A DNA stretch of 20,560 nt, taken from positions 1 to 20,560 of IMG/VR virus record IMGVR_UViG_3300017989_000511, one strand, 5' to 3'. The stretch is from a virus. This document shows positions 4,665-17,972 of this stretch, in pieces (within the stretch, counting starts at the first letter, position 1; each line of letters starts with the position of its first letter). Made by a program: the position numbers and the translations under genes. The notes below the pieces were generated by a model. That model did not search any database. It was not told the DNA's origin and saw nothing but the letters and a program-made list of their open reading frames with translations.

Positions 4665-6059
4665 ATGGAATTAGCCTTTGATACAAAACCTGTTATAAAA
4701 CCTAATCCCGGGGGACAAGAAGGGTTTGCCCAGGATTGGGAGCATTTTATTGTTGCTTTAGAGGGTGGATGGTATTCAGGTAAGACTTTCATCGGAGCAC
4801 GGAAGTTACTAACTTTGCATGAGTACAATGCTTTTGATGCTAACGGAGATGTTACATATGTCCCATCATTAATAGTTGCTCCGACTTACAGCAATGCAAT
4901 GGATTTTTGTGTACCTCATTTTCAGGAAGCGTGTATTGAAGCCGGACTTAGTTACGAGTGGAAAGGCAGCGGGTATTTGGCTGATGGTAAATTTGCAGCT
5001 CCTGCAATTATAATCTCTGATTTTGGAACATCCTTGCGGCCGAGCGTGGTTTTGGTTCGAAGTGCTGATGTTCCAAAACGTATTACTGGTTTTACCGTAG
5101 GTGCAGCGTGGGGAGACGAACCTACTCGGTGGAAATCAGATAGCTTTGATCCCTTGAACGATCCATTTATTCAGATGACCGGACGTGTTCGGGATGTTAG
5201 GGCTCGGTTGTTACAGATTTTATTAACCTACACCAACGAAGGTGATACTACCAGAGTTTATGAGGAAATGCATACAGGGGCCTCTGATAGAAAATTGTAT
5301 CGGGCTCCGACGAGTGAAAACAAAGCGGCAGAGGATTTCTGTCAGCGTCAAGAAAATGTGCTTACAAAGGAATTAGCCCAGCAGTATCTTGGTGGTAAAG
5401 CAATAAGTTTGAGAGGCGGCAAGGTTTACAGCGGTTATGATTTTGATGTGAATGTAGATAACAAGTTGACTCTAAGAGAAGAAATACCGCTTCAAATAGC
5501 ACTTGATTTTAATATTGTCCCCGGTATGCATTTGGAAGTAGGTCAGTACCATGGTGACTTGGACTTGTTTACTACGATTCATGAGATACACGGTTCTCGA
5601 ATGGATGTCCAAGCTGCTGCAGATGAGTTTGTTAAACTAACAAAGCAATTAGAATGGAAGTGGAACAATCCGTTGGAAATATTTGGCGATGCTACAGGTG
5701 GTAGTGAATGGGCAGGTACAGGTGACAGCTGTTATACTATCCTGCAGCAGAAGTTAAAAAGCCAGGATATTCCATACCGAATGCGAGTCCCCAGAAGTAA
5801 TCCTCCAGTAATTGATAGAACAAACGCTGTTAATTGTGCTCTGATGGATGTAACCGGTAAAGTGCATTACAAAATTCATCCTCGCTGTAAAAGGCTTCTC
5901 GATGATTATAAAAAGCTGCAAAGAGACAAATTTGGTGAGATTGATAAAACTGATCGCAAGTTATCCCATCCATCCGATGCCGACGGTTATAGGATCTGGT
6001 TTTTAAGGCCGGTACGCATTGAACAAACAAATATAGGAGGCAGAATCTCTGTATCATAA
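4665..6059 (+). CDS. terL: Terminase large subunit (ATPase and nuclease)
   Basis: This 464-residue protein is the packaging motor that translocates DNA through the portal and cuts it. The ATPase domain has a Walker A-type loop GGWYSGKT (34-41), a Walker B-type strand AAWGDEP with acidic D151/E152, and an LLTYTNEG motif near 187-193 that fits the coupling motif. The RNase H-like nuclease domain has acidic residues at ALDFN (D281), IFGDATGG (D342) and SHPSDADGYRIW (D438/D440), spaced as in terminase nucleases. Length is typical. It starts immediately after the preceding stop and ends in a TAATG overlap with the portal gene, the usual terL-portal arrangement. Confidence 0.93.
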   Translation: MELAFDTKPVIKPNPGGQEGFAQDWEHFIVALEGGWYSGKTFIGARKLLTLHEYNAFDANGDVTYVPSLIVAPTYSNAMDFCVPHFQEACIEAGLSYEWKGSGYLADGKFAAPAIIISDFGTSLRPSVVLVRSADVPKRITGFTVGAAWGDEPTRWKSDSFDPLNDPFIQMTGRVRDVRARLLQILLTYTNEGDTTRVYEEMHTGASDRKLYRAPTSENKAAEDFCQRQENVLTKELAQQYLGGKAISLRGGKVYSGYDFDVNVDNKLTLREEIPLQIALDFNIVPGMHLEVGQYHGDLDLFTTIHEIHGSRMDVQAAADEFVKLTKQLEWKWNNPLEIFGDATGGSEWAGTGDSCYTILQQKLKSQDIPYRMRVPRSNPPVIDRTNAVNCALMDVTGKVHYKIHPRCKRLLDDYKKLQRDKFGEIDKTDRKLSHPSDADGYRIWFLRPVRIEQTNIGGRISVS

Positions 6060-7435
6060 TGGCTAAAACAACAGTAAAAAAACCAAAAGAGGGCGAAGAA
6101 ACCAAAAAACAGACAGCCAGTGATGTTGCTGGTCTGGCTGATGGATTTATGGGGTTTGGGCAAGCACTTTCGGGAACATATAAAACATATCGTAAAATGA
6201 GGAACAATCCTACTATCGCCTTGGCTCGTATGGTAGCGATGGCTCCAATTAGAACGGCAACTTACAGTGTTGTATCTTCTGATGACGTCCCAGAGGAAAG
6301 AGTTGAATTTATATCAGAGCACCTGCAAGCGATGTGGCCAGGATTGATAAAACAGATTTTATATGCTTTGGATTATGGGTGGATGCCTTTTGAGAAAGTT
6401 TGGCAAGTTAATTCAGCGGGTAAATTGATTTATCGCAAATTAAAACCATTGTTAGTTGATAAGACGCAAATAATGATAGACAGGGAGACTGGGTTGTTCA
6501 CTGGACTAAAACAGGAAGCAGTTGAGTTACCTGTGGAGAAGTGCTTTGTTTTTACCTATGACGGTGAAGCTGGTGATTTATATGGTCGCAGCCGTCATGA
6601 AAATTTAAGAGAAACAGTATGGAATCAATGGATTCAAATCTCTGAAAGACGTGGTCAATACACACGTAAAGTTGCTGGTGTTACACCGATGATTGAGTAT
6701 CCAGAAGGTGAAAGTCTTAATGAGCAGGGAGTGAAGAAATCCAATTTCGAATTGGCTAAGGCAGTATTGTCCAAGTTAGGCGAGGGCAATGGTGTTTGCA
6801 TGCCTAATACAATGGCTAAATTTGCTGGTGACTTGGCTCGCAGTGGCATCGATATTGCTGCACTGAAAGCATGGCATATTTCATTTCTTGAAACCAAAGG
6901 GACTCACGGCAAAGGATTTACTGATACATTACGTCATCTTGAAAGTCTTATGATGAGGGGTTGGCTTGTACCTGAACGAGCTGCAACTGAAGGTCAGTAT
7001 GGAACAAAAGCAGAATCTGAAGCTCAGGCAAGTTTGGCTTTGGTAATTGCCGATTTAACTTTCGCAGATATTTTACAAGCTATTAGCTGGTATGTTGTCA
7101 ATCCCTTATTAGTTTATAACTATGGACAGGAAACTGAAAACAGCATATGGCTTGAACGCGGTGGGCTTGATCCAGTATTACAGGCTTTTTACAGAGAGAT
7201 AATCAAAGCTGTTTTAATCCATCCTCAGAATGTTGATTTGTTTGAGACCTGGCTGGATGTTGATGCAATGTTGGATAACGTAGGTTTACCGAAAGCTGCA
7301 GAAGTTGTAACTAATTCAGAAGATGGGAGGCAAGAAGGCAAATTGACTTCTATGGTGAAAGATATTTACCACAAAGTAAATAGGAATTTGAACAATGTCC
7401 GAAATGCAAAAGAGAAAACCAATCGAAAAAGGTAG
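6059..7435 (+). CDS. Portal protein (DUF935 / Mu gp29-like)
   Basis: The 458-residue product forms the dodecameric ring through which DNA enters and leaves the head. Features matching the Mu gp29-type portal family include an early helix with NNPTIALARMVAMAPIRTAT (about 48-67), the LKQILYAL-like helix followed by DYGWMPFEKVW (about 105-120), an FTYDGEAGDLYGRSRHENLR segment (about 165-185) and a C-terminal region ending in a long basic tail. The early part is acidic/basic mixed and probably disordered. It lies directly after terL and before the MuF-type gene, the canonical order. Its end overlaps a small basic ORF by 41 bases. Confidence 0.9.
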   Translation: MAKTTVKKPKEGEETKKQTASDVAGLADGFMGFGQALSGTYKTYRKMRNNPTIALARMVAMAPIRTATYSVVSSDDVPEERVEFISEHLQAMWPGLIKQILYALDYGWMPFEKVWQVNSAGKLIYRKLKPLLVDKTQIMIDRETGLFTGLKQEAVELPVEKCFVFTYDGEAGDLYGRSRHENLRETVWNQWIQISERRGQYTRKVAGVTPMIEYPEGESLNEQGVKKSNFELAKAVLSKLGEGNGVCMPNTMAKFAGDLARSGIDIAALKAWHISFLETKGTHGKGFTDTLRHLESLMMRGWLVPERAATEGQYGTKAESEAQASLALVIADLTFADILQAISWYVVNPLLVYNYGQETENSIWLERGGLDPVLQAFYREIIKAVLIHPQNVDLFETWLDVDAMLDNVGLPKAAEVVTNSEDGRQEGKLTSMVKDIYHKVNRNLNNVRNAKEKTNRKR

Positions 7436-7520
7436 AAAGAAACCGGCTTCAGCAGAAAAAAAGATTGCCGAAAATAGGCAAGATGAATCCAGAAAAAGAA
7501 GTGGGTTTGCTACAAGATGA
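7395..7520 (+). CDS. Tiny basic hypothetical protein (41 aa) overlapping the portal end
   Basis: The ATG at 7395 is preceded by AGGAA with 9-base spacing. The ORF runs to TGA at 7518-7520, overlapping the portal stop by 41 bases and the next ATG (7517) as ATGA. The peptide is almost entirely K, R, E, Q, S and A (MSEMQKRKPIEKGRKKPASA then EKKIAENRQDESRKRSGFAT), so it is probably disordered or a single basic helix. It occupies the only space between portal and minor-head genes. The good ribosome-binding site and ATGA coupling support expression. A role in translational coupling or as a nucleic-acid-binding minor head peptide is speculation. Confidence 0.55.
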   Translation: MSEMQKRKPIEKGRKKPASAEKKIAENRQDESRKRSGFATR

Positions 7521-8407
7521 TTAAGAGGCTTCAACAAGATAAGGATAAATTGGTCAAAATTGGTTTACGTGCAGCCAAGCAAATAGGAGTACGTACTCGG
7601 ATTGCAGTAATTAGAGCGTATAAAAATAGCGAAGATATAGCACAGGCCGTGTTACTGGAATTAGCAAAACTTGAATCTCTTATTTGTGATGCAATGATAG
7701 CTGCACATTTATCTGGCCGATTGCGTTCTGTATTGACCGCAGCTGAATATATTCGTAACAGAAATAAAGCACTGGGGCCTTATGATGCTGCAACTGAGTT
7801 TGCTAAAAAGCGGTTAGATGTTGATGAATCTGATTTGTCTGTTCTCAAAACAAAATATGGAGATACGGCTACAGATGTTACCCGGCAAGCAAGTAAAGCA
7901 GTTGAACTGAAAGTTAAAAAAGCAGCTCAAGAGATTATTGAGGAAGGAATGCATGTCAGGGAAGGAATCAAGCACTTACGTGAAGCAATGGCAGATACTG
8001 GCATTGAACCGGCAAATCCATGGCTTCTTGAAACGCTTGTCAGAACACAAATTGAAGTGGCTTATGGTGCTGGTCGATGGAATGCTAATCAGGATCCAGA
8101 TATACAGGAGATTCTCTGGGGTTACGAATATGTAACTGTCGGAGATGATAGAGTTCGTCCAAGTCATGAGGCTCTGGAAGGAATAAAACTGCCGAAAGAT
8201 GACCCGATGTGGGATGAGATTTGGCCTCCGAACGGCTTTAATTGTAGATGTGATGTACTTGAAGTATTTGAAGATGACAGCCATAAAATTGTTGAGGTGC
8301 TAGAAACCAAAGAGGTTGACGGGAAAATAGTGGTTCCTGGTGCCGATGAGGGCTGGGGCATAAATCACGGTAAAGTTTACGAAGATATGATTGGCTTGGC
8401 AGCTTAA
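7517..8407 (+). CDS. Minor head / head morphogenesis protein (Mu F-like, SPP1 gp7 family)
   Basis: In this family the protein binds the portal inside the procapsid and may be ejected with DNA. The 296-residue product has a helical N-terminal half and a clear C-terminal MuF domain: LVRTQIEVAYGAGRW (174-188), then WGYEYVTVGDDRVRPSHEAL (201-220), then WPPNGFNCRC (236-245) with paired Cys, and a distal GADEGWGINHGK. The DDRVRPSH and PPN.NCRC blocks are the hallmark of the family. The position after the portal agrees. The start is an ATGA overlap with the tiny basic ORF. After its TAA comes the longest non-coding stretch in the window. Confidence 0.93.
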   Translation: MIKRLQQDKDKLVKIGLRAAKQIGVRTRIAVIRAYKNSEDIAQAVLLELAKLESLICDAMIAAHLSGRLRSVLTAAEYIRNRNKALGPYDAATEFAKKRLDVDESDLSVLKTKYGDTATDVTRQASKAVELKVKKAAQEIIEEGMHVREGIKHLREAMADTGIEPANPWLLETLVRTQIEVAYGAGRWNANQDPDIQEILWGYEYVTVGDDRVRPSHEALEGIKLPKDDPMWDEIWPPNGFNCRCDVLEVFEDDSHKIVEVLETKEVDGKIVVPGADEGWGINHGKVYEDMIGLAA

Positions 8408-8433
8408 AAATTTTTTTGAAAAAAGTGTATTGT

Positions 8434-8471
8434 CATCTAACTGTTGCCGGAGTAATTTCGATTTTTAGATG
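8434..8471 (+). repeat. Inverted repeat 1 in intergenic region
   Basis: CATCTAA (8434-8440) is perfectly complementary to TTAGATG (8465-8471) across a 24-base loop. The stem is AU-rich and weak on its own, but it is the first of three consecutive inverted repeats. Confidence 0.5.
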
Positions 8472-8493
8472 AATGAGTTGAAAAATTAGGTTC

Positions 8494-8508
8494 TTGGCAA
8501 GTGGCCAA
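8494..8508 (+). repeat. Small hairpin 2 in intergenic region
   Basis: TTGGC (8494-8498) pairs with GCCAA (8504-8508) around a 5-base loop AAGTG. It is compact and moderately stable, and sits between the first inverted repeat and the terminator-like structure. Confidence 0.5.
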
Positions 8509-8518
8509 ATTTGTGATT

Positions 8519-8581
8519 GCTGGATGCTATACCCATCGCAGCTTGGTATAGGAGTTGTTAGGTAGGGCATCCAGTTTTTTT
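8519..8581 (+). terminator. Terminator-like structure with a competing hairpin (attenuator candidate)
   Basis: CTGGATGC (8520-8527) is perfectly complementary to GCATCCAG (8567-8574), which is followed by seven T (8575-8581), the form of a Rho-independent terminator. The 39 bases between the arms hold a second perfect stem, CTATACC (8527-8533) with GGTATAG (8545-8551). The left outer arm can instead pair with nearer bases: GCTGGATG (8519-8526) with CATCGCAGC (8534-8542), eight pairs with one bulged G. That hairpin would exclude both terminator stems, as in attenuators or riboswitch expression platforms. It would act between the minor head gene and the protease, scaffold and capsid genes. Confidence 0.5.
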
Positions 8582-8605
8582 ATAGCAGAAAAAGGAACAA
8601 GTGTT

Positions 8606-10000
8606 ATGAAACAATTTGCGGTTTGGACAACAAAATATATTAATGACTTGCCGGATTCTGCATTTCTTTATATTGAATCGGGGGGCAAGAAAGATGAAGA
8701 AGGTAAGACTGTTCCTCGAAATCTGCGTCACTTTCCCTACAAAAATGTTTCTGGCAAGATAGATTTACCTCATTTGCGTAATGCTATTGCTCGTATTCCC
8801 CAAAGTAATTTACCTGCTGATATTAAAGATAAATTGCAGGCAAAGGCTCGTAATATCTTAGAGGCAGAGAAGAAAAAAAGCAGTTTTCATCAACCTGAGA
8901 CATATGCCGTAAATTATGACGGTAATTCTCCATCAGTGGTTTCGTCGGCACAAAAAACAGAAGACCAGGTATCTACCCAGCGTTTCAAAAAAGATATGTT
9001 GAAAGTTGGTGTTTATACTCATCCTGTCTGGGAATGGACACTGGATATTACCGAGGAGCGATTACATCACTTTGTCACAGTCTTTAAAGAGATGCGGGCT
9101 AATGGGGTTGATGTTGAAGTGCCTCTCGACCATAGCAGATCTGCAGCCGACAACCTTGGTTATGTGGTTGATATGTTCGTAGAGCTAGACAAAGAAGGAG
9201 TTTTGACTTTATACGGGATTCACGAGATACGCGGCCAGGAAGGAATTGACATTGTTAGACGAAACAAAAATGTAAGTGTTGCTATTGAACGTGATTTTAA
9301 AGATGGTCAGGGTAATGTTTATGGCGAAGCTATTATTCACAGCAGCATTGTTCAGCAGCCTGTTGTACCTGGACAGGATGATTTTGAAATAGCAGCATCA
9401 CGAGGAACTGTGAGGCAAATACCGGTATTTACTTTATCAAATACAAAGGAGAATAAAATGAATGAAGAAATGTTACAGAAAGTAAGAGAATTGCTTGGTG
9501 CCAGCGATGATCTTACCGAAGAAAATGTTTTGAGCAGAATCACTGAGAAGATTCAATCTTTGACTAGCAAAGCCGAAGAATTGCAGAAAGAAAACATTGA
9601 CCTAAAAGCTAAAAGCGAAAGCAATTCTTCAACAGCAAGCAAAATCGACAAGAATCTTGCTGAGCAGATGGGCACTACTGCTGAGCAACAGCTTAGTTTG
9701 CTTGTTGACGCAGGCAAGATTACACCTGCTGTCAAAAACAAACTTACCGAAGCTCTTATCGGTAAAACTGGCAGTCGTAACATAATGGCACTGAGTATCG
9801 GCGATAACAATGCACCATCCCTATTGTCAAAGGTCATTGATGCACTGAAAGAGAATGACATTGTTCAGCTTGGCGAAAGAACTGGTGTCCAGGTATTGAG
9901 CCGCAGTGTACCAGGTGCTATTGATAAAGAGACATCTGAAAAAGAGCAGGCTAAGGTTACTGACGAAATGGTTGAAATGGTAAATGGAAAATCTAACTAA
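8606..10000 (+). CDS. Prohead protease with C-terminal scaffold (Mu I-like)
   Basis: The ATG at 8606 has AAGGA about 9 bases upstream and gives 464 residues; an in-frame TTG at 8555 is rejected. Residues about 12-90 form a domain (LPDSAFLYIESGGKKDEEGK, then RHFPYKN and LRNAIARIPQSNLP) seen at the N-terminus of some phage proteases and related proteins. Residues about 130-265 are the Mu I-like protease: PLDHS with candidate catalytic H176, NVSVAIE with candidate S224, and a terminal HSSIVQQPVVPGQ like the 'n.PA' end of the family. Residues 285-464 are helical, charged scaffold. The protease cleaves the scaffold during capsid maturation. Catalytic residue assignment is by pattern only. Confidence 0.85.
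   Translation: MKQFAVWTTKYINDLPDSAFLYIESGGKKDEEGKTVPRNLRHFPYKNVSGKIDLPHLRNAIARIPQSNLPADIKDKLQAKARNILEAEKKKSSFHQPETYAVNYDGNSPSVVSSAQKTEDQVSTQRFKKDMLKVGVYTHPVWEWTLDITEERLHHFVTVFKEMRANGVDVEVPLDHSRSAADNLGYVVDMFVELDKEGVLTLYGIHEIRGQEGIDIVRRNKNVSVAIERDFKDGQGNVYGEAIIHSSIVQQPVVPGQDDFEIAASRGTVRQIPVFTLSNTKENKMNEEMLQKVRELLGASDDLTEENVLSRITEKIQSLTSKAEELQKENIDLKAKSESNSSTASKIDKNLAEQMGTTAEQQLSLLVDAGKITPAVKNKLTEALIGKTGSRNIMALSIGDNNAPSLLSKVIDALKENDIVQLGERTGVQVLSRSVPGAIDKETSEKEQAKVTDEMVEMVNGKSN
9445..9457 (+). promoter_or_regulatory. Internal ribosome-binding site for the nested scaffold
   Basis: AAAGGAG (9445-9451) lies 6 bases ahead of an in-frame ATG at 9458, inside the protease gene. It is among the strongest ribosome-binding sites in the window and has no role for the full-length protein, so it argues for independent initiation of the C-terminal part. 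Confidence 0.8.
9458..10000 (+). CDS. Nested capsid scaffold (in-frame C-terminal product, Mu Z / lambda Nu3-like)
   Basis: Translation from the internal ATG gives a 180-residue protein identical to residues 285-464 of the protease-scaffold. It starts exactly where the protease domain ends. Its sequence is highly charged and helical, with a coiled-coil-like stretch (VLSRITEKIQSLTSKAEELQ) and no cysteines. This matches the known scheme in Mu (Z within I) and lambda (Nu3 within C), where scaffold is made in excess of protease from an internal start. The strong internal Shine-Dalgarno supports it; expression itself is inferred. Confidence 0.75.
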   Translation: MNEEMLQKVRELLGASDDLTEENVLSRITEKIQSLTSKAEELQKENIDLKAKSESNSSTASKIDKNLAEQMGTTAEQQLSLLVDAGKITPAVKNKLTEALIGKTGSRNIMALSIGDNNAPSLLSKVIDALKENDIVQLGERTGVQVLSRSVPGAIDKETSEKEQAKVTDEMVEMVNGKSN

Positions 10001-10029: not shown

Positions 10030-11382
10030 ATGAATCCGAATTCAAGTCCAGGAATTGGGACTACTAAAAGTGCTAGTCCTCGTAAGGTACTCGCATCTAC
10101 AGAAGGTGCGTTATTTTTGCCGAGCGGCAAAAGAATCGATGGTTCAGAAAGCCGAGACCCTGCCAATACCGGTGACGTTGATGTTTTGCGTGCTGGTTTA
10201 CTTATGGGTAAGTGTAGTGCAAATGGTTTGTTTGCTCCAAGTATCCTTGGAGTATTGTCGTCTGCTGCCGTTTTTGATGCTGCGACATTAACCGTTCCTA
10301 CTGCCGTTAGCACCGAAGTCTTGCGGCGTATCGGGGCCGGTGGTGTGTTTAGGCTGGTTGGTCCGCGTGTGGCGGGCGGGCCGGTGAGAACAAGGAAATG
10401 TAGTTTGTCTTCCTCCGCAGCTGGAACAATTACCTTAGCTGCTAATGCTGCTGTGGCTGAAGTGCAAACTTTAACGTTGGATGCTTTGATGACGGCAGGT
10501 ACATTTACGCTGTCTTACAAAGGTTATACGACGGCAGCGATAGCGTTTGATGCTACGGTTGCTGAAATTACAGCTGCATTGGAGCTGTTGCCGTCCGTTA
10601 ATTCTGGTGATATTACAATGCAGGCTGCTCACGAACCTGATACCGAGCTGACCTGTACGTGGACGTTTAAGGACACATTAGGAAATGTGCCAATGCTGTC
10701 GATGGACATCTCTAATGCGACTGGCCCGACCAGTGCCACTTGGGTAGAAACTACACCCGGTGAACTGGTTGCTTATGCAACACCAGGAACGAAAGAAGTT
10801 CAGACAATCACAAATGCTGATGGTACCGATGCTGGTACCTTCTGTCTCAAGTGGGGAGACCAAGTTACAACTGCTTTGACTTACGATGACACTGCTGCTG
10901 ATATTGAGGCGGCTCTGGAGGCTTTATCCAGCTGTGGTACTGATGAGATTAAAGTTACCGGAGACGCTGGCGGTCCCTGGACATTGACATTCCAAGGTGC
11001 GTTAGATGGGTCGCAGCCGTTAATAGAAGTTGTCAATGATCTCACAAATGATGGTGGTGTTTGGGAAGGTGGTGTGGTTGTTGCAAGGTCGGTAGCTGGT
11101 GACGGCGGTGCATTTATTGCAGGCTCGCTGATTATGCCTGACGATGGCAGCGAGGTACCACTCACTGTACTTACTGACGAATATGGTATCAAGGTTACTG
11201 ATGACGACAATACGACAAACCTTGATGTTGAATTGGCAAAAGTCTTAGTCGGTGGTCAAATTAAAGCAAATCAGATAATTAACTATCCAGCAGATGCAGC
11301 ATTGCAGAGATGGCTTAAAGACCAAATGAATGCAATAAGTGCAGGACGATTTGTTTTCGATGATGATTATGGTCTTTTGTAA
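10030..11382 (+). CDS. Head decoration protein with two inserted repeat domains
   Basis: AGGAG precedes the ATG. Residues about 55-140 (RAGLLMGKCSANGLFAPSIL, then a TVPTAVSTEVLRRIGAGGVF stretch) and about 358-450 (GGAFIAGSLIMPDDGSEVPL and onward to the C-terminus) together fit head-decoration-type proteins that coat phage capsids. Between them lie two tandem units of about 100 residues (144-245 and 256-355). Each begins VQTLT/VQTIT, continues as AGTF.L...G..TTA, has a D.A..I.AALE.L helix and ends in a beta strand. The same repeat type occurs in other phage structural and large extracellular proteins. The inserts probably project from the capsid surface. Length (450) is large for a decoration protein because of them. 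Confidence 0.65.
   Translation: MNPNSSPGIGTTKSASPRKVLASTEGALFLPSGKRIDGSESRDPANTGDVDVLRAGLLMGKCSANGLFAPSILGVLSSAAVFDAATLTVPTAVSTEVLRRIGAGGVFRLVGPRVAGGPVRTRKCSLSSSAAGTITLAANAAVAEVQTLTLDALMTAGTFTLSYKGYTTAAIAFDATVAEITAALELLPSVNSGDITMQAAHEPDTELTCTWTFKDTLGNVPMLSMDISNATGPTSATWVETTPGELVAYATPGTKEVQTITNADGTDAGTFCLKWGDQVTTALTYDDTAADIEAALEALSSCGTDEIKVTGDAGGPWTLTFQGALDGSQPLIEVVNDLTNDGGVWEGGVVVARSVAGDGGAFIAGSLIMPDDGSEVPLTVLTDEYGIKVTDDDNTTNLDVELAKVLVGGQIKANQIINYPADAALQRWLKDQMNAISAGRFVFDDDYGLL
10459..10764 (+). repeat. Inserted beta-rich repeat domain, copy 1 (within decoration protein)
   Basis: Residues 144-245 of the decoration protein: VQTLTLDALMTAGTFTLSYK, then ATVAEITAALELLPSVNSGD, then a TWTFKDTLGN strand. 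It aligns by eye with copy 2 at 10795 along its full length, but the DNA is diverged, so the duplication is old or the domains were acquired separately. Confidence 0.65.
10795..11094 (+). repeat. Inserted beta-rich repeat domain, copy 2 (within decoration protein)
   Basis: Residues 256-355: VQTITNADGTDAGTFCLKWG, then DTAADIEAALEALSSCGTDE, then PWTLTFQGALDGSQPLIEVV. It has the same strand-strand-helix-strand order as copy 1, with two extra Cys. Confidence 0.65.
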
Positions 11383-11425
11383 TGAATGAATGTTAGCAAA
11401 ATTTAATTTCTAAGGAGTGCTTAAA

Positions 11426-12568
11426 ATGAGTAAAACATTGGCTCAAATCCTTGGTGGAAAGAACCTTTGCGGGGTTATTGAACGCATAAAAGGTGGACTG
11501 CCTTCCGATGTGATCCCTGCAGGTTTTATGAAACCAACGAGAACAATCAAAGGCAACATGGGAACCTACCGCAAGGTAGTTGGAACCAGAAAAACTGCAA
11601 GGCTGGCAACCTATGGTTCACCGAGTAGAATTCGGCAGCTTTCTGGTGTTGAGGAAGTACCTGTCACTTTGCTGCATACTATTGAATCAGCCATACACAA
11701 CCCGACAATTTTAATGATGTTAAAAAATCTGGCTGATGAAGGTGAGCAAAAACTTGGTGAGCAGGAAGTGGCTCGCAAGACAGCCGAATTCAAGCAGCTG
11801 TTTACTAACTTGCGTTTGGCTGCAATCTATAGTGCACTGGCTAACGGAGCTATTTACTATGATACAGATGGTAATCTGCTTGCCAGCGACACTTCACTGA
11901 AAGTTGATTTCAGTGTTCCTGCTGCCGAGACCGGCGGTGGTGGTAACAAAGGAAACCTTGCCGATGCTGCTGGCAATGCAAGTATCATCGGTGCCATTGG
12001 TGCCGGAACTGGTCCGAGTTACAAATGGTCTACGGCTTCAACGAAGATACATACTCAACTTAAAGTATTAAAGAAAACTGCTCGTAAAAGAACTGGCTAT
12101 CCCCTGAAGTATGCGTTCTACGGCGATAACATCTTAGATTACTTTTTGAGCAATACCGCTATCCAGGCGATTATGTCACGCAACGCGAAGATTCAGGATG
12201 CCATTATGAGCGGTGAAATCCCTGATGGTTTTCTCGGGCTGACATGGTTCCCGGCTGGTGAAGCTTTTTTTGAAGATGCAAATGGTACAGCACAAGAGGT
12301 TTTTGATACCAACACGGTAGTTTTCACCCCAGAAATTGACATGACCTGGTATGAGCTGGTTGAAGGTACATATCCAATTCCGAGTAATGTTGGTGATATA
12401 ACAGAGGATGCTTCTGCTGCTCTTAGAACGATAGCAATTAAAGCGGGCATGTTCAGTTATGCTAAAGTTACTGATGATCCGGTTGGTATTAAGCATGTAG
12501 CTGGTGATACGTTTATGCCGCTGATTAAAGTTCCTGGTGCTATTTACATTGCAACTGTTCACTGGTAA
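11426..12568 (+). CDS. Major capsid protein (probable, phage capsid E-like)
   Basis: AAGGAG (11412-11417) lies 8 bases from the ATG at 11426, giving 380 residues; an in-frame GTG at 11417 overlaps the ribosome-binding site and is rejected. The position after scaffold and decoration genes is that of the major capsid protein. The sequence has a basic N-terminal arm, a long helix with LKNLADEGEQKLGEQEVARK (about residues 97-116), and a C-terminal half with ALKYAFYGDNILDYFLSN-like and EGTYPIPSNVGDI segments in a mixed alpha/beta pattern like HK97-fold capsid E proteins. It would build the icosahedral shell. Assignment rests on position, strong translation signals and fold-like pattern; exact family is less sure. 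Confidence 0.8.
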   Translation: MSKTLAQILGGKNLCGVIERIKGGLPSDVIPAGFMKPTRTIKGNMGTYRKVVGTRKTARLATYGSPSRIRQLSGVEEVPVTLLHTIESAIHNPTILMMLKNLADEGEQKLGEQEVARKTAEFKQLFTNLRLAAIYSALANGAIYYDTDGNLLASDTSLKVDFSVPAAETGGGGNKGNLADAAGNASIIGAIGAGTGPSYKWSTASTKIHTQLKVLKKTARKRTGYPLKYAFYGDNILDYFLSNTAIQAIMSRNAKIQDAIMSGEIPDGFLGLTWFPAGEAFFEDANGTAQEVFDTNTVVFTPEIDMTWYELVEGTYPIPSNVGDITEDASAALRTIAIKAGMFSYAKVTDDPVGIKHVAGDTFMPLIKVPGAIYIATVHW

Positions 12569-15178: not shown

Positions 15179-15700
15179 ATGGAAAATCTGGCAAAAGCAA
15201 CCGCTGCTCCGGAGGAATTTAACTGCAATGGTCAAGCTGTGAAGCTGCATCCGCTTCGGTTTCTGGACTGGGGTAAAATTGAACAATGGATGAGGACGCA
15301 GATAATCAACGCTGCCAAGGAAACTTTGAAGGAAGATCCTCAGTTACATCAAGCTGAACGACATGAAGTTATGCGAAGTGCACATCAGGAAGCTGCAAGA
15401 ATTTCAATATCATCTTGTTTTATGGGTAAAAAAACAGGGGATATCGATGAACAGACTATCGCATTTTTACGAACCTTTGAAGGCATGCTACGAGTAGTCC
15501 ATTTGGCCTTACGCGATGCACCAGGCAAGGCCGGAAAACCAATTTATAGTTTGGCGGAAGTAGATGAAATGCTGTGCCAGAATTTTGACATGCTTGGTGA
15601 AATGTTTAGCAAAGTTTTTGATTTGAGTTTTCCGACTGCACCTGTAGATTCCGGAATCGATGGGGATACTGAAAAAAAAACGATGCAGAAAGGCCAATAG
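15179..15700 (+). CDS. Tail assembly chaperone, short form (lambda gpG-like)
   Basis: AAGGA precedes the ATG. The 173-residue zero-frame product lies in the position of lambda gpG, between tube and tape measure. It begins with a short beta region (FNCNGQAVKLHPLRFLDWGK), then helices (QAERHEVMRSAHQEAARISI and AEVDEMLCQNFDMLGEMFSK). The short form ends in TEKKTMQKGQ at TAG 15698-15700, just after a run of nine A. A -1 shift at that run extends it into a conserved-looking second domain. The short and long forms together bind the tape measure and recruit tube subunits in this family. Confidence 0.85.
   Translation: MENLAKATAAPEEFNCNGQAVKLHPLRFLDWGKIEQWMRTQIINAAKETLKEDPQLHQAERHEVMRSAHQEAARISISSCFMGKKTGDIDEQTIAFLRTFEGMLRVVHLALRDAPGKAGKPIYSLAEVDEMLCQNFDMLGEMFSKVFDLSFPTAPVDSGIDGDTEKKTMQKGQ
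15673..15679 (+). other. Programmed -1 frameshift site (A AAA AAA)
   Basis: The zero-frame codons GAA AAA AAA ACG run through nine A (15672-15680). A AAA AAA at 15673-15679 is a canonical slippery heptamer in the right phase (third position of GAA, then two Lys codons). Shifting -1 makes the next codon AAC at 15679 and the frame stays open to TAA at 15889-15891. Transcriptional slippage on the A-run could give the same product. The fusion protein would be 237 residues. Confidence 0.85.
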
Positions 15701-15891
15701 AGTTTGCTTTAATGTTTCGCCAGTTGGCTGAAGAATATACCTGGGATGCTAACCAAGTAAGTTTGCTGACCATTCCTCAAGCAATGCTGTATTTACAGGA
15801 TGTAAAATCTAATCAAAGTGTATTTAGAAGGTCGAAAAAATTTTCAACTTTAGCTCAGGCATTTAAATGGGCTGAGGAGCATAAGAAATAA
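15679..15891 (+). CDS. Tail assembly chaperone, frameshift domain (lambda T-like extension)
   Basis: This is the -1 frame segment that joins the upstream chaperone. It reads NDAERPIEFALMFRQLAEEY, then TWDANQVSLLTIPQAMLYLQ, and ends AFKWAEEHKK. The 'f..LA.eY.w....v..LTlpq...l' pattern is typical of the second domain of phage tail assembly chaperones. It ends in TAA overlapping the tape measure ATG as TAATG (15889-15893). An ATG at 15712 could start it independently as 59 residues, but there is no Shine-Dalgarno at proper distance, so frameshift expression is favoured. Confidence 0.8.
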   Translation, partial: NDAERPIEFALMFRQLAEEYTWDANQVSLLTIPQAMLYLQDVKSNQSVFRRSKKFSTLAQAFKWAEEHKK

Positions 15892-17972
15892 TGGCATTTA
15901 ATTTATCAGAAGGATACGTTGACCTTACTGTCCACGACAGAAAGTTTGACTCTGTTATGGGCAAGGTACGCCGGACACTGGCAGGCGTATCCTCTAAAAT
16001 GCAGGCAGTCAGCCAAACCGCTAAAAAAATGTTTTTGGCATCTGCAGCGGTCGCAGGGGTATCGTTGAAAGCTTATGCCAGTTTTGAGCAGGCAATGCGA
16101 AAAGCTACTGCTGTCAGCGATGTTACCGATAAACAATTTGCTCACATGTCCGACATGGCTGAGAAACAATCGATTCGCTTGAATATGGCAGCTACAAAAA
16201 CCGCAGAAGCTTTTTACTATCTTGGTTCTGCCGGCTTGAGTGTCAATGACCAGATAAAGGCTTATGTTCCTGTAGCAACTCTGGCAAAAGCCGCTACGAT
16301 AGAGATGGGGGAAGCAGCCGAGATGGTCGTTGACACAATGAAGGGCTTCAAACTTGGCTTTGAAAATACCGGTCATGTTACTGATGTTATGGCTAAGGCT
16401 GTTACCTCCAGCAATATGACCTTTAGCCAGTTGGGTGAAGCTCTGGCCATTGTTTCTGGCGTAGCAAGGACAACCAATAATTCACTGGAAGAAACTGCAA
16501 CGTTACTTGCAACAATGGCAGATGTCGGCATAAAAGGTTCCCGAGCGGGTACTTCGCTTAGAAGGGCAATGCTTAATTTGGCAGCACCCATGAGTTCAAT
16601 GAATAAATTACTTGCCAGCTACGGTATTGAGATATATACCGCTGAAGGCAAAATGAAACCTTTTATTCAAATTGTGGGCGAAATGAGCGAAAAACTAAAG
16701 GGGGCGTCTGAAGAACAAAAGAATATGGTATTTAAGACTATTTTTGGTGCAAGGGCAATTGCTGGCCAGATTGCCATATTTGATAAGGGACGAGAAGCTC
16801 TTGAAGCATATCGCAAGGGCCTTGAGAACTCTGGGGGAACAGCAGAGAAAATCGCAAATAAACAAATGAAAGCTTTTGCTGAGCAGGTCGGCAAAGTCTG
16901 GAGGCAGGTTAAAACTTTGGCACGGCACATAGGCGAAGTACTTGCCCCTGCGTTCTTGGAATTAGGTGAGCATACCGGCAAAGCTATTGAAAAATTAACC
17001 ACTCTTGTGGATAAGCATAAACGTGATGTACAGGAATGGGCTGAAAGAGTAGCTGCTCGAATAAACTTTGTAAAAAATCTGTTGTGGGAATTTGCTAAGT
17101 TTATGTACACAGACTTTAAAGAGGGTGCAAAATTCGGATTGAGTGCAGTACTGGAAGAATTCAAGGCGTTTGGTAAATCGCTGATGGTGGTAATGGAAAA
17201 GACCTTCACTGATCTATACAACAACATAGGTGTTTGGATTAAACGTGCTATAGCTCAAAAACTCACATTCGACAAATATGAAATGCAATTTCTCAAAGAA
17301 TTAGGATCTGAGGGCGGATTACTATCGTTGTATCCCGAAGAATCTGGAAAATTTATGCATAGCAGAGCCGTAGAAGAAGCCATAAGAACACAAGCCAAGG
17401 AAATGGCACGTAAGCGGCTTCAGTATGATATTGATTATGGCATTTTTGAAACGGCATACCCCTCCAGAGAAACTACTACTTGGGAAGATGTTGGTAAGAA
17501 AATTTTGAAAATTCAGGAAAAAGCATTAGAGACCATTGGCGAAAAGGCTCCACCTGAGCTTGTAGATGCCTACAAAAAAGAACACGAAAAACTTACAAAA
17601 AAGCTGGCTGAAATTGAGGAAAAATACGCCAGATTAAGATTGGAAGATGCTGCAGAATTAAACGAAGAAGTAGCAGACAAAGTGACTAAAGCAGTTGAAA
17701 CAGCAACATCTCCTGCAGCCCCAGCCGTGGCCAAGGAACCAGCTAAATTCGGTTTTGCCGGACTGCAGGAAGCCTGGCGGTCATTAGCAACAAGTCTGGC
17801 TGAAAAAAAGGATAATATCCCCAAAGCTACTCTGGATGAACAAAAAAAGACAACAGAAGAATTGAAAGCGGCCAATCGCATCCATCGTGAAGCAAACAAA
17901 GCACTTACTTCTATGGCAGAGGATGTGGCACGAAAGATTATAGAAAGCGGCCTTGGTACTGTTGCAGCATAG
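15891..17972 (+). CDS. Tail tape measure protein (TP901-1 type)
   Basis: The 693-residue product starts in a TAATG overlap with the chaperone extension. A hydrophobic stretch at about 47-60 (MFLASAAVAGVSLK) precedes the family-typical YASFEQAMRKATAVS (62-76), then helical blocks including FYYLGSAGLSVNDQIKA, MGEAAEMVVDTMKGFKLGFE, MADVGIKGSRAGTSLRRAML and KTIFGARAIAGQIAIF. These are the hallmark order of the TP901 core. The C-terminal half is long alpha-helix with coiled-coil character (KEHEKLTKKLAEIEEKYARL). It sets tail length and is ejected into the host on infection. By the common rule of about 0.15 nm per residue, tail length would be near 100 nm. Confidence 0.93.
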   Translation: MAFNLSEGYVDLTVHDRKFDSVMGKVRRTLAGVSSKMQAVSQTAKKMFLASAAVAGVSLKAYASFEQAMRKATAVSDVTDKQFAHMSDMAEKQSIRLNMAATKTAEAFYYLGSAGLSVNDQIKAYVPVATLAKAATIEMGEAAEMVVDTMKGFKLGFENTGHVTDVMAKAVTSSNMTFSQLGEALAIVSGVARTTNNSLEETATLLATMADVGIKGSRAGTSLRRAMLNLAAPMSSMNKLLASYGIEIYTAEGKMKPFIQIVGEMSEKLKGASEEQKNMVFKTIFGARAIAGQIAIFDKGREALEAYRKGLENSGGTAEKIANKQMKAFAEQVGKVWRQVKTLARHIGEVLAPAFLELGEHTGKAIEKLTTLVDKHKRDVQEWAERVAARINFVKNLLWEFAKFMYTDFKEGAKFGLSAVLEEFKAFGKSLMVVMEKTFTDLYNNIGVWIKRAIAQKLTFDKYEMQFLKELGSEGGLLSLYPEESGKFMHSRAVEEAIRTQAKEMARKRLQYDIDYGIFETAYPSRETTTWEDVGKKILKIQEKALETIGEKAPPELVDAYKKEHEKLTKKLAEIEEKYARLRLEDAAELNEEVADKVTKAVETATSPAAPAVAKEPAKFGFAGLQEAWRSLATSLAEKKDNIPKATLDEQKKTTEELKAANRIHREANKALTSMAEDVARKIIESGLGTVAA

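Follow-up and report, generated by a model that had tools for sequence, protein, structure and literature searches.

The window, by which we mean the whole stretch of DNA analysed here, is a 20,560-base virus record with a head operon, whose recognisable genes are the following.

403–1020, terminase small subunit
4665–6059, terminase large subunit
6059–7435, Mu-type portal
7517–8407, + strand, MuF-like minor head protein, upstream neighbour of the gap (PF04233, E 2e-16; phrog_220, E 2e-31)
8606–10000, + strand, head maturation protease (Mu I-like), downstream neighbour of the gap (phrog_976, E 5e-6)
10030–11382, further protein between protease and capsid
11417–12568, capsid-E-type major capsid protein

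From the stop codon of the MuF-like gene to the start of the protease gene there are 198 bases (8408–8605) without a reading frame of at least 30 aa, and we see no other sizeable gap that lacks one; an earlier note on this DNA had called it the only sizeable gap in a near-gapless operon. Two further sizeable gaps turned out to be filled: 1021–1235 by a 58-aa ORF at 1060–1238, ahead of the ORF that begins at 1236, and 15701–15890 by a stretch open in another frame, behind an A9 run near the end of a tail-chaperone-like gene. This run (within 15671–15892) lies near the end of the tail-chaperone-like ORF at 15179–15700, with the downstream frame open to 15892, and is a probable site of programmed frameshifting that would give a longer tail chaperone. 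The protein at 10030–11382 carries repeated domains (of the LDALMTAGTFTLSYKGYTTAAIAF... type) matching tail sheath and tail tube families, and a related segment sits in a different gene of the relative L002 (8621–8914). The window protease is 58–60% identical to the proteases of L003 and L002. Its N-terminal domains are shuffled among the phages (window 8606–8980; L003 8251–8700; L002 13791–14000), such that the AVWTxKYINDLPDSAFLYIE domain occurs alone in the window, the MPVxCxxxN...RIV domain occurs alone in L002, and L003 has both in tandem.

The predicted terminator hairpin and the conserved core

The features within the gap, all on the + strand, are listed below.

8408–8518, A+T-rich (69%) 5' part of the gap, without conserved sequence or significant structure
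8433–8472, first inverted repeat, TCATCTAA/TTAGATGA, at chance level (33 of 200 shuffles fold as well)
8494–8508, second inverted repeat, TTGGC/GCCAA, at chance level (17 of 200 shuffles fold as well)
8519–8575, intrinsic terminator hairpin, −27.8 kcal/mol, with perfect outer arms at 8520–8527 and 8567–8574
8519–8542, alternative hairpin (extended P2), GCTGGATG (8519–8526) with CATC(G)CAGC (8534–8542), −8.6 kcal/mol
8523–8558, conserved 36-nt core, GATGCTATACCCATCGMAGCTYGGTATAGGRGYTGT, 32 of 36 positions identical to L003 8178–8213
8527–8551, core hairpin (P1), CTATACC (8527–8533) with GGTATAG (8545–8551) around an 11-nt loop, CATCGMAGCTY; found in the RNAalifold consensus and in the minimum-energy fold of L003
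8575–8581, U-tract of the terminator, TTTTTTT, read from the sequence
8593–8596, AGGA, likely ribosome-binding site of the protease gene, read from the sequence

On each strand of the window, we determined for every T-run the most stable hairpin that ends at it. The hairpin at 8519–8575 ranked first at −27.8 kcal/mol, the runner-up reaching −18.8 kcal/mol; none of 120 dinucleotide shuffles of the whole window attained its energy and 9 of the 120 reached −24 kcal/mol, a level met by none of 600 local shuffles. In a further comparison with 200 shuffles, none of which folded as stably, its z-score was −5.3. Eight perfect outer pairs, CTGGATGC (8520–8527) with GCATCCAG (8567–8574), connect directly to the seven T, which is the arrangement of an intrinsic (Rho-independent) terminator, and both direct reading and folding bear out the terminator-like character proposed for this third repeat. 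A consensus scanner missed it because that scanner allows loops of at most 8. The segment 8519–8581 is accordingly a predicted strong intrinsic terminator, far above chance. Of the three consecutive inverted repeats reported in the earlier note, this is the one that exceeds chance, while the first and second fall within the shuffled range. Folded alone, the 5' part of the gap is no more structured than shuffled sequence, being equalled by 138 of 200 shuffles; the complete gap of 198 nt exceeds chance only weakly (z −1.69, 15 of 200 shuffles). A search of the gap for a sigma-70-type promoter revealed none inside it; 8408–8518 is a possible promoter region.

Relatives were collected by a terminase protein search, which yielded L002, by alignment of L002 with the window, which yielded L003 and L005–L009, and by MuF alignment, which yielded 58 loci. 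L003 and L009 (17.5 and 47.6 kb) are identical over the gap and were counted once, and the support for core plus terminator comes from two independent sequences only. Their gap measures 176 nt and holds a counterpart of the core, GATGCTATACCCATCGAAGCTCGGTATAGGGGCTGT, likewise between MuF and protease. The best ungapped match between the window and L003 gaps extends from the core to the T-run with a score of 29, compared with at most 15 in 300 shuffled gaps. The 5' parts of the two gaps, A+T-rich (69%) in both phages, show no similarity above that of shuffled sequence and no shared motif, and the flanking non-coding DNA cannot be aligned. When the terminase, MuF and protease genes of the two phages are aligned by codons, their DNA is 60–65% identical overall and 35–43% identical at third positions, a divergence at which no similarity would be expected to survive in unconstrained sequence; in these three genes, only 15 of about 3,070 36-nt segments contain at least 32 matches, all of them in the protease gene. 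We infer that the core is under purifying selection, an exchange confined to about 40 bases being the alternative that seems less likely.

The terminator of L003 is built from other sequences. It consists of GGGCTGTC-GAAAAT-GACAGCCC followed by TTGTTTTTTT (−19.5 kcal/mol with its lower stem) and comes after the core hairpin, whereas the window terminator encloses the core hairpin and overlaps the core. The window arms CTGGATGC/GCATCCAG are absent from L003, and the terminator arms of the two phages are unrelated. That a terminator is kept despite the replacement of its arms argues for termination itself being what is retained, and the T-run lies at a nearly constant distance from the beginning of the core (52 nt for the window, 53 for L003), so that both position and termination signal have been kept. 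The core hairpin (CTATACC/GGTATAG) and the terminator are thus probably under selection, as judged from the two sequences. The proposal of a structured non-coding RNA inside the head operon is to this extent supported: the predicted terminator is well above chance, and the core that bears the exclusive pairings is kept in one other lineage.

Further members were sought in several ways. At gathering score and at E ≤ 10, Rfam returned no family for the core or the gap, its best sub-threshold matches being at chance level, and gave no match to a described regulatory RNA family of the attenuator or riboswitch kind; a tRNA/tmRNA search found none. Phage DNA similarity searches with the region, with 8515–8580 and with the L003 element gave no match or chance matches. 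Three core patterns scanned over viral contigs recovered L003/L009 and otherwise chance matches inside long reading frames. Over 84,980 bacterial genomes the core pattern matched 9 times, about the chance number estimated for its 18 fixed bases, and none of these matches had the outer core bases. Several of the nine lie in what we take to be a glgC-like coding stretch. Covariance models built from the two sequences found no further member in 50 related loci (best other match, E 0.66), and in the other relatives the element is absent from the 1.5 kb after MuF, with at least 11 mismatches of 30. The core is present once per genome. Only two lineages carry the element in these collections, which may omit records very close to the window.

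Interpretation of the element and its alternatives

The reading that we consider reasonably probable is an intergenic non-coding element, closed by an intrinsic terminator, that bears a conserved RNA hairpin core and brings about partial termination in the head operon. RNA polymerase on the late/head operon would run past the MuF gene and transcribe the core hairpin (CTATACC/GGTATAG, loop CATCGMAGCTY); a share of transcripts would stop at the T-run (8575–8581), and the read-through share would continue into protease, scaffold and capsid. As a result, transcription would be thinned between portal/MuF and protease/scaffold/capsid, or the upstream unit would be closed. Against this reading, expression of capsid genes that lie behind so strong a terminator would call for read-through, anti-termination or a promoter further downstream, none of which was found. 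The computations show the termination signal and the conservation of the core; partial termination, an effect on downstream gene dosage and any binding or role of the core are inferred. We favour a fixed-ratio attenuator, or the close of an upstream transcription unit, over a switch that senses a ligand.

A doubtful alternative is that the gap contains a small-RNA gene, starting in its A+T-rich part and ending at the terminator, whose RNA of about 100–160 nt would act in trans through the core. Such a gene would account for the A+T-richness of the 5' part in both phages and for a conserved core joined to a terminator, at a site where other relatives carry inserted genes (the L044 methylase, the L008 toxin-like fusion and small ORFs). 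Against it, a search for sigma-70-type sites gave no promoter in the gap, the 5' parts of the two phages share no conserved motif, and, within the phage DNA compared, no 11-nt complement to the core occurs elsewhere in the window or in L009.

The earlier note had interpreted the hairpins as a two-fold switch. In such a switch the alternative hairpin of the core would act as an anti-terminator opposed to the terminator, under the control of a phage or host factor. The core permits three arrangements: P1; P2, which is GATG/CATC around the loop CTATACC and is lengthened by CAGC in the window; and P3, which is AGCTY/GRGYT around the loop GGTATAG. In the window the energies are −8.6 kcal/mol for extended P2, −6.9 for P1, −6.3 for P3 and −27.9 for the full terminator, whose best fold includes P3 and excludes P1 and P2. 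The inner stem CTATACC/GGTATAG, noticed earlier, is thus present as a perfect repeat and is not formed in the window minimum-energy fold. Folding confirms the proposed pairing of GCTGGATG with CATC(G)CAGC, with eight pairs and one bulge, and this pairing and the terminator do exclude each other in the window; in L003, however, P1 and the terminator coexist without conflict in the minimum-energy fold (−23.1 kcal/mol, z −4.6).

These folds leave the switch unlikely, somewhat more so than the small RNA. In its favour, besides the exclusive pairings, prefix folding of the window gives extended P2 as the early structure, displaced once the terminator has its 3' arm available, and in L003 the 5' arm of the terminator overlaps the alternative core hairpin AGCTC/GGGCT, so that some core pairing competes with the terminator in both phages. 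The early appearance of P2 is, however, expected of any long hairpin, in which transient local folds occur, and is no evidence of a switch. The competing stem differs between the two phages: the terminator arm that competes with P2 is missing in L003, whose terminator instead shares bases with P3, on the 3' side of that stem, and the switch as stated is therefore not conserved. In the window the terminator is more stable than the alternative pairing by about 19 kcal/mol, and only GATG/CATC of the anti-terminator is kept in L003. A lack of compensatory changes in either stem had been named beforehand as evidence against the switch. None of the P1 and P2 pairs varies between the window and L003; three P3 pairs vary one-sidedly and still pair, and one breaks; and the core and terminator stems show no two-sided compensatory change, two independent sequences giving this comparison almost no power.

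Terminator-type riboswitches, attenuators and RNA anti-terminators such as HK022 put are the known systems closest to such a switch. The window element resembles them in that a conserved RNA core adjoins a terminator directly and can form pairings incompatible with it, and differs from them in that it has no Rfam match, ligand or factor and in that its switching pairs are not conserved.

It is less likely still that the core is a conserved DNA site, either a protein-binding inverted repeat or a recombination linker at the module boundary, that lies beside the terminator by chance. The core is indeed an inverted repeat, the N-terminal domains of the adjoining protease are reassorted from phage to phage and the boundary accepts insertions, but there is one copy per genome, the constant spacing to the T-run suggests a single RNA unit, and pattern scans found no copy at the module boundaries of other phages. 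The seven-base loops of P2 and P3 (CUAUACC and GGUAUAG) are fully complementary, and one may imagine, as a highly speculative reading, an RNA element of two adjacent hairpins, GAUG-[CUAUACC]-CAUC and AGCUY-[GGUAUAG]-GRGYU, that acts near the head-assembly genes either as an H-type pseudoknot opposing termination or by intermolecular loop-loop pairing; loop-loop pairing between RNA molecules is a property of the phi29 packaging RNA. A short conserved peptide encoded by the core (MLYPSQLGIGVVR in the window, MLYPSKLGIGAV... in L003), for which an ATG opens the same frame in both phages and, of the 5 differences as far as codon twelve, 3 fall in third positions, was rejected as extremely improbable, since the ATG has no ribosome-binding site ahead of it, lengths and ends differ between the two phages, and the third-position bias is not significant, 3 of 5 being within chance.

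The boundary in relatives and in known phages

Phages need the products of their head genes in widely different quantities, and it is often not clear how a single late operon supplies them. A terminator that sits just where portal/MuF give way to protease/scaffold/capsid, and that has been rebuilt from unrelated arms in two lineages, suggests a selected transcription boundary, and the 36-nt core offers a concrete target for asking whether that boundary is regulated. If the element is only a fixed partial terminator, it makes a modest addition to what is known of SPP1 and T7-like phages.

In Bacillus phage SPP1, the MuF-like gene 7 ends at 4730, with a predicted Rho-independent terminator at 4718–4765; moron ORFs 8–10 follow, then a predicted terminator at 6780–6824 and scaffold gene 11 from 6917 (PMC6316719). 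Late gene clusters of SPP1 are bounded by terminators, without a recognised second late promoter (PMC6316719). As far as this account of SPP1 goes, the two phages are alike in having an intrinsic terminator between MuF-like and scaffold/capsid genes, in the late region, with no mapped late promoter after it. They differ in their sequences, a comparison made from the published tables, and in that ORFs 8–10 lie between in SPP1 whereas the window has no ORF there. The terminator table of PMC6316719, which gives stem, loop, position and energy, describes no conserved core at the SPP1 terminators. The earlier view that a phage switch at this point was not known is too strong, given the predicted SPP1 terminators that end gene 7 and precede gene 11 (PMC6316719); the same kind of boundary is present in the same place, and the location is therefore not new. 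In the T7-like phage LUZ100, the capsid gene is controlled by a local promoter and by a terminator after the capsid gene (PMC10134795). T7-like phages thus resemble the window in having a terminator within the structural operon that adjusts head gene expression, but their terminator follows the capsid gene, with a local promoter ahead, whereas that of the window precedes the protease gene and no promoter is seen (PMC10134795).

Among the relatives, L002, whose terminase is 71% identical to that of the window, has a MuF–protease gap of 68–71 nt without a hairpin, which shows that a phage of this type can do without the element. Unrelated terminators occur shortly before the protease in the more distant L037/L044 and L048, and other relatives have genes or nothing at this boundary. 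Insertions found there include a cytosine methylase (L044), an ADP-ribosyltransferase-like MuF extension (L008) and, elsewhere, small ORFs. L044 (6698–8760) and L037 (4190–6153) share the same layout, a gene insertion between MuF and protease, in which a C5 cytosine methylase was found in L044; the insertion is closed just ahead of the protease by a terminator, AACGCCTGTG...CACAGGCGTT-TTTCTTT. In L008 (12973–14559, on a contig shared with L029), the MuF-like protein carries a C-terminal ADP-ribosyltransferase-like extension (PF03496, E 1.6e-5), a fusion of the toxin-carrying MuF kind that the SPP1 paper mentions (PMC6316719).
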